Source: Rhodocytophaga rosea (GTDB taxonomy: Bacteria; Bacteroidota; Bacteroidia; Cytophagales; 172606-1). Taken from it: a DNA stretch of 64,000 nt. Within the stretch, counting starts at the first letter, position 1. The number at the start of each line of letters is the position of its first letter. The DNA lies in contig NZ_CP048222.1 of the NCBI RefSeq assembly GCF_010119975.1, positions 3,552,501-3,616,500 of the forward strand. The letters are read 5' to 3'. This document shows, piece by piece, positions 40,220-48,250 of the stretch. The position numbers and the translations under genes are program-made. Below the pieces are notes generated by a model. It was not told where the DNA came from. It did no database searches and saw nothing but the letters and a program-made list of their open reading frames with translations.

Positions 40220-40477
40220 AGTAGTTTAATTATACTGATTAAATTGTAGCCTCATTTACAGCCAGCTTAGTAGAATTATTTCCAACATAGAATTTTACAC
40301 GTAATTTTTACAATCTTTTATTGTTTGAGTATAAAATCGAGCCGATCATAGGTAATAGTTATTAACATTTTACCTTGTACTAAGTTGACATAATTTTCAG
40401 TCCATTTACAATAGAATAAGTCTATTCTCAATATTTAATAACATTTCCCTAATTTGACCAAAACCTCAAGATCCTGT

Positions 40478-41785
40478 ATGAAATTATCTTTAAATCTATT
40501 GTGGAGTAAACAAGCATATCATTTTACTCTGATATGTGGCCTCGTTATTTCGATTCACAATCAGGGTTTTGCCCAAGCTAATTCATTGTTACCACAAAGC
40601 TTAACCGCTATTAATAATATTATCTATTTTTCAGGCTTTGATAAAGGGTCTGGCCGGGAATTATGGAAAAGCGATGGAACAAGTAGTGGTACTTTTTTGG
40701 TAAAAGATATTTTTTCTGGCGTTACCAGCTCTAACCCTATGAATTTTACCAATGTAAATGGCACCTTATTCTTTACAGTAAATATTACCCGCGAGAGGTT
40801 TGAATTGTGGAAAAGCGATGGAACATCAGCAGGCACAGTTAAATTAAAAGATGTTTCACTTGCACCCTCTCCCGAGCAATACCAGCTGAATCAGGTTGCC
40901 ATTACACTTGTTGCTGTTGGGAAAACGCTATTTTTTACTGCAAATAATAGTTCGCTTAGTTATGATTTGTGGAAAAGCAATGGTACGGTAACAGGTACTA
41001 TTGAGGTAAAGAAAGGTATTGAAGTGGCTGTTTCACCGAATAGTAATTCCAGACTTTCGCCTGAACTAGTGAATGTGAATAACTTGCTATATTTTTTTAG
41101 CGCTTCAGGCAAACAACTATGGAAAAGTGATGGAACAGCAACAGGCACAGTACTAGTAAAAGATGGATTTACTAATAACCAATTTTCTAATCAGGAATTC
41201 ATTTATCACCCACTGAAATTAACAAGTTCAGGGGGTATGTTGTATTTCACGTATGGAAGTAAAGAAAATGGCAGAGAATTGTGGAAGAGTGATGGAACAA
41301 ATGCAGGAACCATTTTGGTGAAAGATATCACCCAGGGATCAGATTATTATTCAGCAAGTACAAATTTCCGGGGTATGCATGATTTGAATGGTGTATTGTA
41401 TTTTATTATTTCTTCTACTAAGGGAAATATAGAAAAAAATGAGCTGTGGAAAAGTAATGGGACTGCTTCCGGTACGGTAGCAGTCAAGGACTTAGGTCCG
41501 GTTACAAATGAGTTTAATTCCTATGTTGAGTCGATTAAATCCGCAGGTAATAAGTTGTTTTTTACCATTAAGAACAGCACATATGGTAATGAATTATGGA
41601 AAAGTGATGGTACAACGGCAGGAACAAAATTAGTAAAAGATATAAAATCCGGTAATGGCAGTTCTTCCCCCCGGCAACTGACTAATGCAAATGGTGTACT
41701 TTTCTTTGTAACGGAGAATGAAAAAAACGGTTCTAAACTGTGGAAAAGTGATGGCACCTTACAAGGCACTGTGAACATCAGATGA
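40478..41785 (+). CDS. ELWxxDGT-repeat protein
   Basis: A 435-residue exported protein. The longer frame begins at a TTG; ATG 40478 starts a typical signal peptide ending near QGFAQ. Eight repeats of about 50 residues follow, each with the pattern (E/D/Q/K)LWKS(D/N)GTxxGT and then a V-K-D-like strand, forming a beta-propeller of the ELWxxDGT family common in surface proteins of gliding Bacteroidota. Unusually, the protein stops seven residues after the last repeat motif and has no T9SS sorting domain. It is divergent from a T9SS lyase-like gene, with paired operator-like dyads between them. Function unknown. Confidence 0.82.
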   Translation: MKLSLNLLWSKQAYHFTLICGLVISIHNQGFAQANSLLPQSLTAINNIIYFSGFDKGSGRELWKSDGTSSGTFLVKDIFSGVTSSNPMNFTNVNGTLFFTVNITRERFELWKSDGTSAGTVKLKDVSLAPSPEQYQLNQVAITLVAVGKTLFFTANNSSLSYDLWKSNGTVTGTIEVKKGIEVAVSPNSNSRLSPELVNVNNLLYFFSASGKQLWKSDGTATGTVLVKDGFTNNQFSNQEFIYHPLKLTSSGGMLYFTYGSKENGRELWKSDGTNAGTILVKDITQGSDYYSASTNFRGMHDLNGVLYFIISSTKGNIEKNELWKSNGTASGTVAVKDLGPVTNEFNSYVESIKSAGNKLFFTIKNSTYGNELWKSDGTTAGTKLVKDIKSGNGSSSPRQLTNANGVLFFVTENEKNGSKLWKSDGTLQGTVNIR

Positions 41786-41798
41786 TCGGATTCCTTAA

Positions 41799-43265
41799 CT
41801 AGTTATTGAAAAACCTGGCCATTATAAAGCCTATGAAAGCCGCCAATGCAATGGCATAAAAAGCAGTGCTTACGTATACAAATATTTTGAAAGCCGGAGA
41901 GTTAATAAATTCATTTTTAATGACTGGAATTGCTGGCGAATTATTCACAACAGTTTTGACAGCATCTTGTTTGGGTGCCAGCGGATGCAGATTTGGGAGT
42001 TGAGGAGTTGCTGGTTTGCCATTTCCCACTTTTTGAATCTCTGTTTTCAAGGAATCTATCTGCTTAGCTAAGGCAATATGAATATTGTCTTCCCGCATAC
42101 GAGCAAAATAATCCTCAATCTGTACGGCTGCTTTCCGGGAATCTTCCATAAGAGTCTGAATGCGTTTTTCTACAAATCGGGTAACGGCATCATCCACTTT
42201 ATCAAAGTGTTTGCCCATATGATCAGTAGCCTGGCCAGCGGTTTGAATATACGAATTCAGGTAGCGCACTTGTTTTTCTATCAGGTTGTCATTTTCCTGC
42301 ATGTATTTTCCTAATCCCTGTATTCCCTCCCGGAAGCCACGGAGATCATCCATAATCTGCTTGATGGCAGAAAATGAACTCTTCGCTTGTTCAGTTAGAA
42401 TATTAGCTTCTCCAATAGAACGAATGAACTGTTCGAGCACTGGCAGGCTTTTTTCTATTTTGCTGAACACTTCTACATTGGCTTGGACAATCTGCTGGTA
42501 ACTTCCCCGCTGCAGGGTTTCCAGAAACTCTTTTTGCAAAGACAAGTTTTGAGTAATGCCGGAAACCGTTCCTTTGAATGAGCTTATATTTTCAGAAAAC
42601 TCCTGGTTAAAAGCATCCAGATTATTCTTTAAACTGGAAAGACTAGCCGCCATATCAGAAGTAAGCGAAGGCAAGAGTTCTGCCTGTAGAAAAGTATAAT
42701 AATTATTTTTGTTACGGTCGCGGGAAAGCCGTGCTTTCTTGAAATAGTAGTTGCCTAAAGTAGTAAGCAGTAATCCACAAGCGCTTCCGCCCATACCTAT
42801 AAGTACACCACCTAAAAAAGATTGAATAGAAGAATCTTTGATTTCTTCAAAAAAGGTTATTTCCAGTAGGCCAATAATTACGCCTACAAAAGTACCCATC
42901 AGCCCGATGTATAAGGGCAAGGCAATATTAGATTCAATTTCATTTTCTAATGCTTCAGATTCCCGTTCGGAAATATCCCGGAGTATATTAAAATCAGCGG
43001 CGTTACCCCGGTTTTTTTGCAGATACAGATTAGTAGCCGATAAAATGCGTACAAAACCTTCGTTAAAATTGCCATTCTGATTAATGAGTTTAAGGCCTTC
43101 TGCTTCTTCAATATCAACTACTTCGAGTCCTGTTTCGGGATAGATTTCTTCCAGGTGATTAATTTTTGAAAGATTCAGGCGGTATTGGTAAATCTGTAAG
43201 ATGAGAATAATCCCGATACACAGTATCTCCAGCAACGTTACAACATCAAAACCCATCGGCATCAT
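41799..43265 (-). CDS. ExbB/TolQ/MotA-like membrane protein with long coiled coil
   Basis: A 488-residue membrane protein, third gene of the operon. A helix lies at 9-28. A pair at about 114-136 (PLYIGLMGTFVGVIIGL) and 149-174 (FLGGVLIGMGGSACGLLLTTL) carries the pattern of the proton-channel helices of the ExbB/TolQ/MotA group, with the 'GLxGT-xxG' turn in the first and a glycine-rich second helix. A long helical and coiled-coil stretch (about 180-420) and a Pro/Gln-rich linker follow, then a last membrane helix (about 462-484). That coiled-coil tail after a MotA-like core is reminiscent of ZorA. Its start overlaps the stop of the middle gene as TAATG. An ion-driven role is inference. Confidence 0.75.
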   Translation of the reverse strand: MMPMGFDVVTLLEILCIGIILILQIYQYRLNLSKINHLEEIYPETGLEVVDIEEAEGLKLINQNGNFNEGFVRILSATNLYLQKNRGNAADFNILRDISERESEALENEIESNIALPLYIGLMGTFVGVIIGLLEITFFEEIKDSSIQSFLGGVLIGMGGSACGLLLTTLGNYYFKKARLSRDRNKNNYYTFLQAELLPSLTSDMAASLSSLKNNLDAFNQEFSENISSFKGTVSGITQNLSLQKEFLETLQRGSYQQIVQANVEVFSKIEKSLPVLEQFIRSIGEANILTEQAKSSFSAIKQIMDDLRGFREGIQGLGKYMQENDNLIEKQVRYLNSYIQTAGQATDHMGKHFDKVDDAVTRFVEKRIQTLMEDSRKAAVQIEDYFARMREDNIHIALAKQIDSLKTEIQKVGNGKPATPQLPNLHPLAPKQDAVKTVVNNSPAIPVIKNEFINSPAFKIFVYVSTAFYAIALAAFIGFIMARFFNN

Positions 43266-44575
43266 TACACAAACTTGATTTTTGCTTTTTCTATAATTTG
43301 CCAGCTATTGCCGTTTTTAAGCAACATTCCTGGTTTTATCACTTCTATTTTTGTATGCTGAGAAGATGATATTTCAAAATCACAGGCATCTTTCAGCAAT
43401 CTTTCCCTGTTCTGAATGGCATATTCGTGCAGTTCTTTATTATCTACTACAGAAAAAGACGCTTGTTCGCTGTTGGCAAGGATGGTAATTTCGTAAATAC
43501 TGCGCCGATCGCTGATGTCCTGCAATTGGGAAATAACAAAACCGTTTTCCTTCGGATAATCAGCATATTTTTTCACTGGTTTAGGTGCTTCCGGTGGTGT
43601 AGGCTTCGCTACCTGAAAACTTACCACCTTTGGCATATTAGTTTGCGCTACTGTGAGGGGCATTACTGGTTTTGGTTCGGTCACTTTCTGTTCTATAACT
43701 GGTTTTTGGGGAACTGTCACAATAGGCTTTACTATTAAAGGCTCTTGCAATTGTGAATGGCTTTCTTTTAATAATGCCATTATCTCTTGACGAAGATTCT
43801 CAATTTTTTTCTCAAGATTCTCATTATTCTTTTCCAGGCGAGGATATATCTCAAAATCAATGGATTGCCGGACAGTTTTATAATAATCATCTTTCTCGCC
43901 AGATGAATTTCGTCTTCTTTGGATTATTCTATAATAAAACCATAAATTCACTAATGATATTAACCCAATTATAATTACAGCAATCGACATAAAATCAGGA
44001 AATGCTGCTTGCTGGGTACTTACAAGTTTTGAGGCTGAACTTGATTGCAAAGCAGAAGCGGTCATCATCTGGTTATTTTCATCTGCTAATTCAATCGCTT
44101 CTTTTCTAATATCGGCTAATTTTTCTTGTAACTGCGGTAAATAGCTTTTCTTTTTACGATCCTCAACAATAAAGTCAATTACCTGGCTAAGTTGCTTGTC
44201 AATAGATTTTTTAACACTGTAGGCTGATTTAAATCCGTTTATTTTTACGCTTAATTCCTGTGTTTTAGAATTAAGATCATATATTTTAATAACCTCTTTA
44301 AGTAGTGAATCTGTATTATAATTTAACTCATCCAGCCTTGCTGCCAGCTTTCCTGCCTCTGGTTTTTGTTTATCATCGGCTAATACAACTTGCATGGTAG
44401 CAAAATTAAACCGGTCTACTGCCTGATTGAAAATTTCCTGGGAAGATTGAGCAGCTAAAGAAACTGGAATGAATAGAACCCCTATTTGTATAGCAATCCC
44501 TATCATACGCTGCTTATATAAGACAGCAATCCCTGGAAAAATTGTTTTAAATAAGGCTATTTTGTTTTCAGGCAT
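43265..44575 (-). CDS. Membrane-anchored coiled-coil protein with conserved C-terminal domain (operon middle gene)
   Basis: A 436-residue protein. A hydrophobic segment at about 24-43 ends in LAAQ, like a signal peptide, but a long N-terminus precedes it. A helical domain (about 45-190) is followed by a membrane helix (195-217), a short coiled coil (about 240-272), a Pro/Val/Lys-rich linker (about 275-340) and a compact mixed domain (345-436). That domain opens with KENGFVISQLQDISD and ends PGMLLKNGNSWQIIEKAK. I recognise no family. The layout predicts a periplasmic helical part and a cytoplasmic C-terminal domain, placed to meet the ATPase encoded upstream. It overlaps the ATPase gene by 8 bases and the ExbB-like gene by 1. 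Confidence 0.7.
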   Translation of the reverse strand: MPENKIALFKTIFPGIAVLYKQRMIGIAIQIGVLFIPVSLAAQSSQEIFNQAVDRFNFATMQVVLADDKQKPEAGKLAARLDELNYNTDSLLKEVIKIYDLNSKTQELSVKINGFKSAYSVKKSIDKQLSQVIDFIVEDRKKKSYLPQLQEKLADIRKEAIELADENNQMMTASALQSSSASKLVSTQQAAFPDFMSIAVIIIGLISLVNLWFYYRIIQRRRNSSGEKDDYYKTVRQSIDFEIYPRLEKNNENLEKKIENLRQEIMALLKESHSQLQEPLIVKPIVTVPQKPVIEQKVTEPKPVMPLTVAQTNMPKVVSFQVAKPTPPEAPKPVKKYADYPKENGFVISQLQDISDRRSIYEITILANSEQASFSVVDNKELHEYAIQNRERLLKDACDFEISSSQHTKIEVIKPGMLLKNGNSWQIIEKAKIKFV

Positions 44576-47500
44576 AGTAGGTGTGATTGAGTTCTTTGGA
44601 AAGATTTACCAAGCTATGGACGAATGGGTAAAAAAACAAACTTTCCTCCAGCGGCTCTTTATTATTTACAAATCCACTTAATCCTTCCTGCAGGCCATCT
44701 TTCAAGTGTTGTTCCAGCGTTCGTTTCACTACATCCAGATCAGTATCAATGCCAAAATAATTCTTCAGATTCAGGTCTTCATTGTCCAGCACCAGGCTCA
44801 GCAGTTTGCGGGTATTTTGAAGCACACTTTCCTGTAATTCCCGGCTTATTTCGCCATACTTAATCCTGGTTTGTGGAGTAGCAGTATCTTCTGCACCAGT
44901 CAGCACAATGTGAGTAATATCAGGATCGGTCCCATTCTGATTGGCAAGTACTCCGCCATTGGCAGTAGCTTCTTTTGGCTCTTTAGTCAGAATGAGTTCA
45001 AAGTTAGCAGGAATGTTTAATCCTTCTGGTCCACATACGTTTTCCAGAATATACTTGGTAAGTGCTTTTATCCCTTTTCCACTTGCACCACCCAGGGCAT
45101 TTATATACAAGCTACCTTTCCCACTAAATACAAAATACCTTGGAATAACAATATTCGGATCTTTGTGCTTTTTAACATAGTTAATAAGCTGGGCAATGTG
45201 GTAAATAATCGCACTATAATGGAGCAGCAGAATAATTTTCAGGTGTTTATCATTGCGGATAAAATCTCCGAATTTGAGTTGCGGCCTGGCTTCCTCATCA
45301 TAGTTAAATAAAAAGCTAATAATATCTGAAGAAGCTAATGTGATATCGCCACCAGTATCATAGTGAATGAGATCATTATAGAACTCCTCAATATTATCAT
45401 TGGCCGAAGTAGATTTTTGTGTACTGGCTTTATCTTTTCTGGCCTGGTTTTTAAACGCCTGTAAAAATCCATTGCTTTTGTCATGAAATTCATGGGCATT
45501 AAACCCGGCTCCCCAGATGGCATTGGCTCCAAATTTAAAAGACGAACCAAACCTGGGCTGCTGATTTACAAACAGCAATACATCGGTGGTTCCACCACCA
45601 ATATCAATGTTAATAATGTTCTCTCCAGCCACCAGTTGATTGGTGCGGCGCAAGAAGTAAAAAGGCGCTACCGATTCTGTAATATGTGTAAGTGTACCAT
45701 GATTGCCGAAGATAGCTTCAAAATTCCGCTGCCAGGTTTCCTGGAATTCTCCTTTCTGAAAATCACTCATACTCAAAGGCGAGAACCATACAATTCTGGA
45801 TTTGGCCGGATCGCCACTGTTGAGAATGATCTTATTTTTAATGAGGAGCAACATTTCCTTAAAAAATGCTTCAATGCGTTGCAACCCTTTCACATCCATT
45901 TGCGATTGCCATTTCAGATTGGTCTTTACTGGTGCTTTGCGGTCCAGGCGTTCTTTCTCAAAGCTGAAGGCTACATTGATATTTCCCAGCAAAACCGCTG
46001 GCTCTATTTTAAAATTCTCCGTTTCACTCACCGCCGTACGAACCGGGAAACGGAAATTAGAGCCAAATTCATTGCCGACGATGGAAGGAATAAATTCGCG
46101 TTCCTGCAAAATGAGTGTTTCCCGCAGGTTATTTAAACCCCGGCTGTATCTGGAAGCAATTAGTGCTTTGTCGCTTGATTCTATATCGGCTGGTTTATTA
46201 AGCATACCCACCTGCACATCTTCTTCACCGACGGTAAATGGACGAGGCATGGAATTGATGTCGTCTGCATACGCAACATGGGTATTGGTAGTACCAAAAT
46301 CGATGGCAAACGAAAATGCTTTTCCTCCTACATTTACTGGCCGCCATTTGGGAATAATAAGCCCTTTAATATCGTTGTGCCGGAGCTTTTGTGGATAGAT
46401 TTCAATAAAATCAAAAGGCCGGTCTACTTCGTAATAGGTGGACGAACCGATCAGTTCTTCTTTTTTGGAACGCCGGGAATTCTTCTTCACATTTTGCTGA
46501 ATTTCTGCATTGCCAGCGAAAAACTTCAGATCGTATTCTTCATTAATGAGATCTTCCCGGTCATCCACATCAATGAGCATCAGTTTGTAATAGTTATTGT
46601 ACTGCGGCTGGTTCATCACTTTGTAGAAAGGGAAAATCCCCAGGCCTGCTTTGCAATTCACGATTTCGCCATCTTCCTCTTTGCGTTCCAGCGTGGGGTA
46701 ATCCTGCAACCTGGCATAATAGGTTTTCTCGAAATTTATTTCTCCTTTCCGGATGGGAATATTCAAGCGTACAATAATCCGCTCGCCTGCCAGACTAGAC
46801 TCCTTGATCTCAAAACTGATTTGCCGCTGCAAATCTTCCAGATCGAAATAATCGAAATAACGCCGGTTAATAGGAAGTAAGTAGGGAAAGATTCTATCCT
46901 GCGTAAGGGCTGCATTGTGTTTGCCGGTTACAAAAAATTTCTCATTGATGCCATACGGCAACTTAATGATATAGTCTTCAAGAAAATCGCCAATGGTGAG
47001 GTAAGGATAAACTGTATGGGTGTCAGGAAGTACACGTTGATTAAGCGGTAAGGCATCTTTCAGAGGCACTTTCGTATTGGATTGCCAGGGACCAGCCATA
47101 TACTGCATGCCTGCCCTATCGAACCCATTTTTTAATACCAGTGGTTTTGTGCCAACAATGGTTTTAGCCGGATTCTGGTTAATTGTAAAATCACTCTTCG
47201 CTTCAATACCACCAGTTTCAGGCCGTTTCTGAATAAATTCTACGCTATTGATGGTAACAATATTATTTTCATCATCCCGCAAAAAATCATACTCTGAAGC
47301 CAGGTCGGTCGTTTGATTATTATCTATATCCAGTAAGGCATTTCTGATTTCCCGGCTGGCATATTCATCCCGGCTTTCAATAATATATTCAAACAGCGTT
47401 CGGCAGGTTCTTTTCAATGCCGGATTACTCCGAAATAGTTTGTATAAATATACCTGAAAATCTTCGTGACGCTGATGCAAAGGCACATTCCGCTCGAAAT

Positions 47501-48065
47501 ACCGGTCGCCTTTGGGTGTTTTCAGATCTATCGGTTTCAGATCCGGATTGGTGAAAAATAAGGTGAGTGGCGAAGAACCGCCAATGAGCTGATAATCGTA
47601 CTTGATAATATATACATCTTTCAGGCTGCTGAAAGCATTCGTATCTCCTTCCTGTTCCAGAAAGAGTTGCAGCGTTTTTCCCAATAATCTCTGGTTAGTA
47701 TGAGGACTATTGAGCAAAGCCTGAATTTCGTTGTCCCGGCTCCATTTGGTAATGCTTAAATTTGCTTTAGCTTTTTTGTAACCCTGATAGTTGAACAGCA
47801 ATTCCAGCATATCCAGACATTGAGAAACCATCCGGTGATAGACTGAATCCTGGTTATGGCCATCTTTGTTGACCATATCAAAAGCTGAGGAAAACAAGTG
47901 CATTCTTGCAAACGGACTGGGTACAGAAGTAAGTCCTCTAGTGGCTTTGCGCCCTTCTGTATCAGAAATTTCCATGATCTGGTCGCTGTTGATAGCGCCG
48001 CTGATCTGGTGCCAGCCTTCGTCGGTAGGATTTTTAGTTTTATGTAAAGTGAATTTGGTGCTCAT
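44568..48065 (-). CDS. Giant actin/Hsp70-fold ATPase
   Basis: An 1165-residue cytoplasmic protein, first gene of the operon. The C-terminal half has the actin/Hsp70 nucleotide-binding signatures: phosphate 1 with D589 in AIDFGTTNTHVAYAD, phosphate 2 with D821 in NIDIGGGTTDVLLF, and an adenosine-type motif FVFSGKGSLYINALGG (about 965-980). The first 580 residues precede this fold and match nothing I recognise; they begin with a SVPSPFARMHLF segment and a helical CLDMLELLF region. Hsp70 proteins have about 600 residues with the ATPase first, so this is neither DnaK nor HscA. SrfB-like proteins are a remote alternative. It has no signal peptide or membrane helix. Overlap with the two following membrane-protein genes implies one complex. 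Confidence 0.75.
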   Translation of the reverse strand: MSTKFTLHKTKNPTDEGWHQISGAINSDQIMEISDTEGRKATRGLTSVPSPFARMHLFSSAFDMVNKDGHNQDSVYHRMVSQCLDMLELLFNYQGYKKAKANLSITKWSRDNEIQALLNSPHTNQRLLGKTLQLFLEQEGDTNAFSSLKDVYIIKYDYQLIGGSSPLTLFFTNPDLKPIDLKTPKGDRYFERNVPLHQRHEDFQVYLYKLFRSNPALKRTCRTLFEYIIESRDEYASREIRNALLDIDNNQTTDLASEYDFLRDDENNIVTINSVEFIQKRPETGGIEAKSDFTINQNPAKTIVGTKPLVLKNGFDRAGMQYMAGPWQSNTKVPLKDALPLNQRVLPDTHTVYPYLTIGDFLEDYIIKLPYGINEKFFVTGKHNAALTQDRIFPYLLPINRRYFDYFDLEDLQRQISFEIKESSLAGERIIVRLNIPIRKGEINFEKTYYARLQDYPTLERKEEDGEIVNCKAGLGIFPFYKVMNQPQYNNYYKLMLIDVDDREDLINEEYDLKFFAGNAEIQQNVKKNSRRSKKEELIGSSTYYEVDRPFDFIEIYPQKLRHNDIKGLIIPKWRPVNVGGKAFSFAIDFGTTNTHVAYADDINSMPRPFTVGEEDVQVGMLNKPADIESSDKALIASRYSRGLNNLRETLILQEREFIPSIVGNEFGSNFRFPVRTAVSETENFKIEPAVLLGNINVAFSFEKERLDRKAPVKTNLKWQSQMDVKGLQRIEAFFKEMLLLIKNKIILNSGDPAKSRIVWFSPLSMSDFQKGEFQETWQRNFEAIFGNHGTLTHITESVAPFYFLRRTNQLVAGENIINIDIGGGTTDVLLFVNQQPRFGSSFKFGANAIWGAGFNAHEFHDKSNGFLQAFKNQARKDKASTQKSTSANDNIEEFYNDLIHYDTGGDITLASSDIISFLFNYDEEARPQLKFGDFIRNDKHLKIILLLHYSAIIYHIAQLINYVKKHKDPNIVIPRYFVFSGKGSLYINALGGASGKGIKALTKYILENVCGPEGLNIPANFELILTKEPKEATANGGVLANQNGTDPDITHIVLTGAEDTATPQTRIKYGEISRELQESVLQNTRKLLSLVLDNEDLNLKNYFGIDTDLDVVKRTLEQHLKDGLQEGLSGFVNNKEPLEESLFFYPFVHSLVNLSKELNHTYYA

Positions 48066-48193: not shown

Positions 48194-48250
48194 TAAAAAA
48201 GCATGAGCAGAAAAATTTAAGCGATTTGGCTTAGATTATCTGCTCATGCT
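48194..48250 (-). terminator. Rho-independent terminator after susCD
   Basis: On the minus strand AGCATGAGCAGA (48250-48239) pairs with TCTGCTCATGCT (48211-48200) and is followed by TTTTTTATT. A nested TAAGC/GCTTA stem lies in the 27-base loop. It ends the SusC/SusD transcript and separates it from the ATPase operon, whose own promoter must lie within 48066-48195. Confidence 0.88.

Follow-up and report, generated by a model that had tools for sequence, protein, structure and literature searches.

A giant actin-like ATPase accompanies a predicted tubulin-like GTPase in a vWA-type operon that can include a ZorAB-like motor

Three overlapping genes of Rhodocytophaga rosea, here called A, B and C, are one piece of a seven-gene cluster whose other products are predicted to be a tubulin-superfamily GTPase (TubL), a vWA-type lipoprotein, a small three-transmembrane (TM) protein and a MotB-like protein. 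We regard this cluster as a real, under-described type of tubulin-vWA operon in which a giant actin-like ATPase, the product of A, is the constant partner and a ZorAB-like motor is an optional module. The identities of the components are much surer than the role of the machine that they may build.

The trio lies within the 64,000-nucleotide stretch that was analyzed (hereafter the window) and corresponds to positions 3,594,299-3,600,565 of the single-contig, 8.98 Mb genome. As an earlier note on this window had described, the ORF listing places all three genes on the same strand, at exactly the coordinates then given, with overlaps of 8 bases (A/B) and 1 base (B/C). The proteins are conserved in Rhodocytophaga aerolata, the nearest relative found, with amino acid identities of 86-87% (A), 56% (B) and 74% (C). 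Values of pN (0.08-0.30) are far below those of pS (0.75-0.88), which indicate near-saturated synonymous sites. Because of this conservation and constraint, the ORFs are not chance occurrences. Upstream of A, a hairpin (RNA z = -5.9 vs shuffles) is followed by six T residues, which bears out the proposal that a terminator separates the trio from the susCD unit. A terminator consensus scanner missed this hairpin because its loop is long, and sigma-70 and terminator consensus scans performed no better than chance. A + strand ORF adjoining the trio (window 40454-41785) is built of repeated ELWKSDGT units.

Table 1. Features of the trio and its upstream region (window coordinates).
Feature	Position	Strand	Description or basis
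Gene A	44568..48065	-	1165 aa; ~580 N-terminal residues without known domain, then ATPase domain
Gene B	43265..44575	-	436 aa; 2 hydrophobic stretches, coiled coil, Pro-rich linker, C-terminal domain
Gene C	41799..43265	-	488 aa; MotA/ExbB/ZorA-like
Phosphate-1 motif of A, FAIDFGTTNTH, residues 586-596 (D589)	46278..46310	-	D and G invariant in 17 homologues
Glu797 of A, ES-AP motif before phosphate 2	45675..45677	-	Invariant in 17 homologues; candidate catalytic residue
Phosphate-2 motif of A, IDIGGGTTD, residues 820-828 (D821, D828)	45582..45608	-	Sequence, alignment and hhalign
Adenosine-type motif of A, FSGKGS, residues 980-985	45111..45128	-	Both glycines invariant
Core TM helix of C carrying an invariant Thr, GLMGTFVGVIIGL	42864..42920	-	Alignment
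Core TM helix of C carrying an invariant Ser/Thr, IGMGGSACGLLLTT	42762..42818	-	Alignment
Hairpin and T run between susD and A	48195..48250	-	Intrinsic terminator of susCD unit

The complete cluster is contiguous and on one strand in R. aerolata (L014/L033), where it reads lipoprotein (436 aa), small three-TM protein (138 aa), TubL (481 aa), A, B, C and MotB-like protein (224 aa), and is flanked by an rpoC-side block on one side and by kynureninase on the other. The same seven-gene order is present in related genera and in a more distant class-mate. The earlier note had treated the trio as a three-gene operon in its own right, a reading that we rejected on the evidence of this contiguous order; the tubulin-like GTPase and lipoprotein genes both fall outside the window. 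In the R. rosea genome, as assembled, the operon lies in three pieces. The TubL gene (3,361,676-3,363,118; 90% identity to R. aerolata) is ~0.23 Mb from the trio and is adjoined, at 3.36 Mb, by the genes for the small TM protein and the lipoprotein. The MotB-like gene (1,711,996-1,712,652; 81% identity) adjoins kynureninase, 1.9 Mb from the trio.

This scattering, along with the low identity of B, would be expected if the machine were already broken in R. rosea, with the split operon decaying and the trio no longer working. However, all seven frames are open and full length, pN is well below pS in each, and the motifs of A are intact, and we therefore judge that the separated parts have been kept and that decay is very unlikely. 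Two local differences were seen near the displaced genes. A 159-aa membrane-protein ORF (L036:9682-10161) separates the lipoprotein and small TM genes, between which R. aerolata has no such ORF. Kynureninase beside the MotB gene (L037:8414-9687), a single 427-aa ORF in R. aerolata, is here spread over ORFs of 282 and 151 aa that overlap in different frames, pointing to a frameshift.

By its motifs and profiles, A is an actin/Hsp70-superfamily ATPase, as had been proposed from its intact phosphate-1 and phosphate-2 motifs, to which an adenosine-type motif can now be added. Across 17 homologues, cyanobacterial proteins among them, the key positions of these motifs (D, G and E) never vary (Glu797 is E798 in the first row of that alignment). 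Profile comparisons match A to MreB (8e-6), mortalin/DnaK (5e-5) and Hsp70, and hhalign gives 95% against FtsA. A shares the phosphate-1, phosphate-2 and adenosine motifs and their invariant residues with MreB, FtsA and DnaK, whereas its long N-terminal extension is foreign to those proteins and it scores above the cut-off of no curated family. SrfB, the SrfABC component that may likewise be a giant actin-like protein, has partners other than those of A; its family (PF07520) gave a weak match in 2 of the 17 homologues (best E 0.056, not significant). No relative of A was found in phage records. The A1 profile matched proteins in 315 genomes of the phylum, a figure that we left uncounted because nearly all of these were short phosphate-2 matches of ~20 bits and of the FtsA/Ppx kind.

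TubL is, by its T1 and T4 loops and by profile matches, a divergent GTPase of the tubulin superfamily. The glycine loops read GIGGTG (T1) and FGGTGA (T4), of which GGTG and FGGTG, respectively, are conserved. At E <= 0.1, PF00091 was matched in 13/13 members and PF13809 (Tubulin_2) in 12/13, with a best value of 3.2e-9, and a profile of 17 members matched FtsZ structures with E 0.002. The R. rosea protein itself falls below the Pfam cut-offs, members from other genomes score better against Tubulin_2 than it does, and no protein above the curated Tubulin_2 cut-off is encoded anywhere in the R. rosea genome. TubL is distinct from the organism's own FtsZ, which is encoded elsewhere, and HHalign of TubL against that FtsZ alone was not significant. 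AlphaFold models of A (two-sequence input) and TubL (one-sequence input) reached pLDDT of only 27 and 33, and profiles and motifs are thus the basis for assigning both folds. A lipobox is found in most members of the lipoprotein family, which also shows a MIDAS-like [DE]-x-S-x-S-M motif, with Asp in first place (DxSxS) in cyanobacteria and in one remote cluster (G309). With no Pfam vWA match, it is a putative vWA-type protein at the motif level.

TubL and A are almost always found together. In an even sample of the phylum, strong matches to the two profiles fell in the same 9 of 395 genomes, and the genes are adjacent in three further remote clusters (G309, G184 and G284) reached from weak remote matches. 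A search of the viral_contigs set with TubL alone recovered five contigs, all of which carry A immediately downstream (5/5). The same core is found in Prevotella oral taxon 299 and on three cyanobacterial plasmids; in Gloeothece the vWA gene lies on the strand opposite to the core. In genome G215, likewise reached from weak matches, the two are joined in a 1615-aa fusion (L087:548-5395) that includes a TubL segment (118-209, iE 3e-12) and an A segment (1014-1308, iE 2e-7), the latter collinear from phosphate 1 to phosphate 2. The fusion gene adjoins a lipoprotein gene and a MotA-like gene. The one exception, G390 (L083:6925-12067), has the lipoprotein, an interrupted TubL and a shortened MotAB, with neither A nor B, in an assembly listed with 13% contamination. 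The neighborhoods of ATPase homologues, which the earlier note had proposed to survey across Bacteroidota, show a conserved gene order in which TubL nearly always accompanies A. The proposal also withstood the two outcomes that were said to count against it, as the gene order recurs in other genomes and A matches no characterized family.

A homologue of B follows A in most related clusters. By simple hydropathy, B has TM-like stretches at residues 24-42 and 195-213, and several related clusters hold additional genes that carry its C-terminal domain. In one genome (G435, L032:101-3857), three consecutive genes each end in a domain like the C-terminal one of B, which looks like a multiplication of that domain.

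The claim that the ATPase is linked to an ExbB/MotA-like membrane protein was upheld and can be extended. Simple hydropathy gives TM-like stretches in C at residues 8-26, 116-134, 150-168 and 465-483, the last of which is preceded by a long helical segment. C has three core TM helices and a long helical tail, the fourth, C-terminal TM being seen only in Rhodocytophaga. Thr124, Ser160 and Thr167 are invariant in 6/6 homologues. C gave the best match of the trio to any PADLOC model (ZorA2, E 2.9e-9); against NCBIfam ZorA2 it scored 15.7 bits, vs a curated cut-off of 700. Its MotB-like partner matches PADLOC ZorB1 (2e-12) and ZorB structures (5.6e-9 and 2.6e-5; 8vvn over residues 5-214), scores far below the NCBIfam cut-off, and has a below-cut-off match (6.6e-5) to the OmpA-family peptidoglycan-binding domain PF00691. 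Its TM Asp24, the putative ion carrier, is invariant in 6/6 homologues and sits at the position of ZorB Asp24. The residues that characterize 5:2 motors of the MotAB/ExbBD/TolQR kind, a TM Asp for the B subunit and Thr or Ser within the core helices of the A subunit, are present in the MotB-like protein and C, respectively. The two are predicted to form a 5:2-type ion motor.

Of the known motors, that of Zorya comes nearest. In that system, ion flow, the tail and peptidoglycan binding are all needed for function (PMC11890865). As in ZorA-ZorB (PDB 8qyd, 8qyh, 8vvn), a MotA-like protein in the cluster extends into a long helical tail in the cytoplasm, and its MotB-like partner combines a peptidoglycan-binding domain with an identically placed TM Asp. 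Unlike Zorya, the partners are TubL, A, B and the lipoprotein, and the cluster falls outside Zorya because it lacks ZorC, ZorD and ZorE, for which no match was found among the scanned cluster proteins or 96 flanking proteins.

The earlier note had raised a possible role in defense. In a Zorya-like anti-phage system, the ZorAB-like motor would sense phage damage to the cell wall and signal to an A/TubL effector. That the best scores of C and MotB are to ZorA and ZorB fits such a system, as do the patchy distribution in the phylum (~2-3% of sampled genomes) and the defense models matched by some flanking genes of related loci: 20 PADLOC models, each in one protein, among the 96 flanking proteins, a raw count without matched background and not an enrichment. 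Yet the cluster encodes no nuclease or helicase, A and TubL match no PADLOC model, and the core is conserved without the motor. Its neighbors in several genomes are housekeeping genes, including rpoC and kynureninase in R. aerolata and, in Picosynechococcus, genes for an alternative F1Fo ATPase and for phosphonate transport. Location in a defense island was rejected on the grounds of such flanks and of the R. rosea neighborhood, where none of the 62 other proteins encoded near the three pieces matched a defense model at 1e-10. A dedicated phage-defense role is thus not supported, and a Zorya-like system seems to us quite improbable.

The cluster includes C and MotB in Rhodocytophaga, in three genomes of a second family, in G359 and G390, and in two related records of viral_contigs. 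These records (L103:10001-16911 and L104; 103 kb and 58 kb of viral or host DNA) have the order lipoprotein-TM-TubL-A-MotA, with MotB as well in L103. Both genes recur remotely in G309, and G215 has a C-like gene. Many other clusters have no MotAB, and genome-wide searches of ten motor-less genomes recovered no C, although one of the ten (G435) has MotB and a C-like fragment at the end of a small contig. Thus, the motor is not essential to the core. Six changes in MotAB presence are needed on the TubL tree, a count made unsure by several long branches, and the tree is compatible both with an ancestral MotAB followed by losses and with repeated gain. In three motor-less clusters (L024:11605-13020, L025:12551-13852 and L027:10210-11514), a single-TM protein, with a WG-repeat-like end in the first two, is encoded shortly after B and perhaps stands in place of the motor.

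For the core, the nearest known gene association is the FtsZl1-vWA-OmpA operon. Makarova and Koonin 2010 (PMC2875224) describe in their main text FtsZl1 genes that occur with vWA, GTPase, kinase and OmpA-family genes, report FtsZl1-vWA-OmpA operons from cyanobacteria and Bacteroidota, and predict a role in membrane remodeling. The cluster resembles the operons described there (PF13809) in having a divergent tubulin-superfamily protein beside vWA-type and OmpA-type envelope proteins, in a genome that also holds an ordinary FtsZ. It differs in that TubL, at ~480 aa, scores under the Pfam cut-off in R. rosea, whereas FtsZl1 proteins typically exceed that length and carry a coiled coil and a C-terminal helical domain, and in that no P-loop GTPase or protein kinase of the kind listed there is seen in the Rhodocytophaga cluster. 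The main text of the same paper names neither an actin-like partner nor MotA/MotAB; A may be an unnamed entry in its supplementary lists of associated families. In a survey from 2023 (PMC9871819), the Tubulin_2 group was put to one side on account of its divergence.

The cluster could accordingly be a membrane-remodeling or vesiculation system of the FtsZl1 type, in which TubL and A polymerize and MotAB, added only now and then, does no mechanical work for the core. The remodeling prediction made for vWA-FtsZl1-OmpA operons in the main text of PMC2875224 favors this account, as do the clusters of cyanobacteria, Prevotella and other lineages that have the core but lack MotAB, and the number of changes that MotAB requires on the TubL tree. 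However, several lineages, remote ones included, have C and MotB within the cluster, and this recurrence is hard to explain by chance neighbors. We consider this account unlikely, if still worth weighing.

Overall, the cluster looks like a mixture of an FtsZl1-vWA operon and a Zorya motor. The literature searched held nothing on a tubulin-actin-MotA operon beyond Makarova and Koonin, and no known system was found that pairs a tubulin-like protein, a giant actin-like protein and a membrane ion motor. The earlier note's statement that the trio could not be matched to a named system likewise stands, as none of A, B and C exceeds the cut-off of a curated family in Pfam, NCBIfam or PADLOC.

A further comparison, by analogy, is with accessory machines for surface motility or secretion in gliding phyla, such as AglRQS-MreB of Myxococcus or GldLM. 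The Agl-Glt logic of Myxococcus, which joins an actin-like protein to a motor of the MotAB type, is similar to A with C and MotB, and the cluster is found in Cytophagales and cyanobacteria. But it is also present in Prevotella, which is not known to glide, and the 25 commonest Pfam families of the flanks include no Gld/Spr or T9SS family. We give this comparison hardly any credence as an explanation.

The reading that we favor, by a slight balance of judgment, is an envelope-anchored, nucleotide-switched machine of seven components that is energized by an ion motor in some lineages and serves envelope remodeling or an envelope-integrity response. The vWA-type lipoprotein would be outside and the small three-TM protein in the membrane. 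TubL and A would be the constant cytoplasmic pair, assembling as a complex or filament on the inner membrane through B as a tether, with the small TM protein helping B to hold the assembly there. The GTP/ATP state of the pair would be coupled to the lipoprotein on the far side of the membrane. Where the C-MotB motor is present, it would be gated by engagement of peptidoglycan through the OmpA-type domain of MotB, and ion flow through C would turn or strain its cytoplasmic tail, which would switch or remodel the TubL-A assembly. The outcome would probably be local envelope remodeling or a response to envelope integrity. The earlier note's suggestion of an ion-powered or nucleotide-switched envelope machine is consistent with the NTPase motifs and with a MotB that has a TM Asp; its ion-powered part does not extend to the many clusters that lack the motor.

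A more specific version, in which TubL and A are obligate partners and a rotary 5:2 ion motor drives or gates them, is tentative, and we would sooner doubt than accept it. If true, it would be a direct link of a proton or sodium gradient to a two-component, cytoskeleton-like membrane assembly.

Tubulin-like and actin-like proteins normally belong to separate systems. Here they are paired in a conserved and widely spread cluster, sometimes with a Zorya/Mot-type motor, which suggests that ZorAB-like motors serve more than phage defense. For FtsZl1-type tubulins, which were predicted in 2010 and for which the literature searched holds no tested function, the cluster would provide named partners and a testable mechanism.
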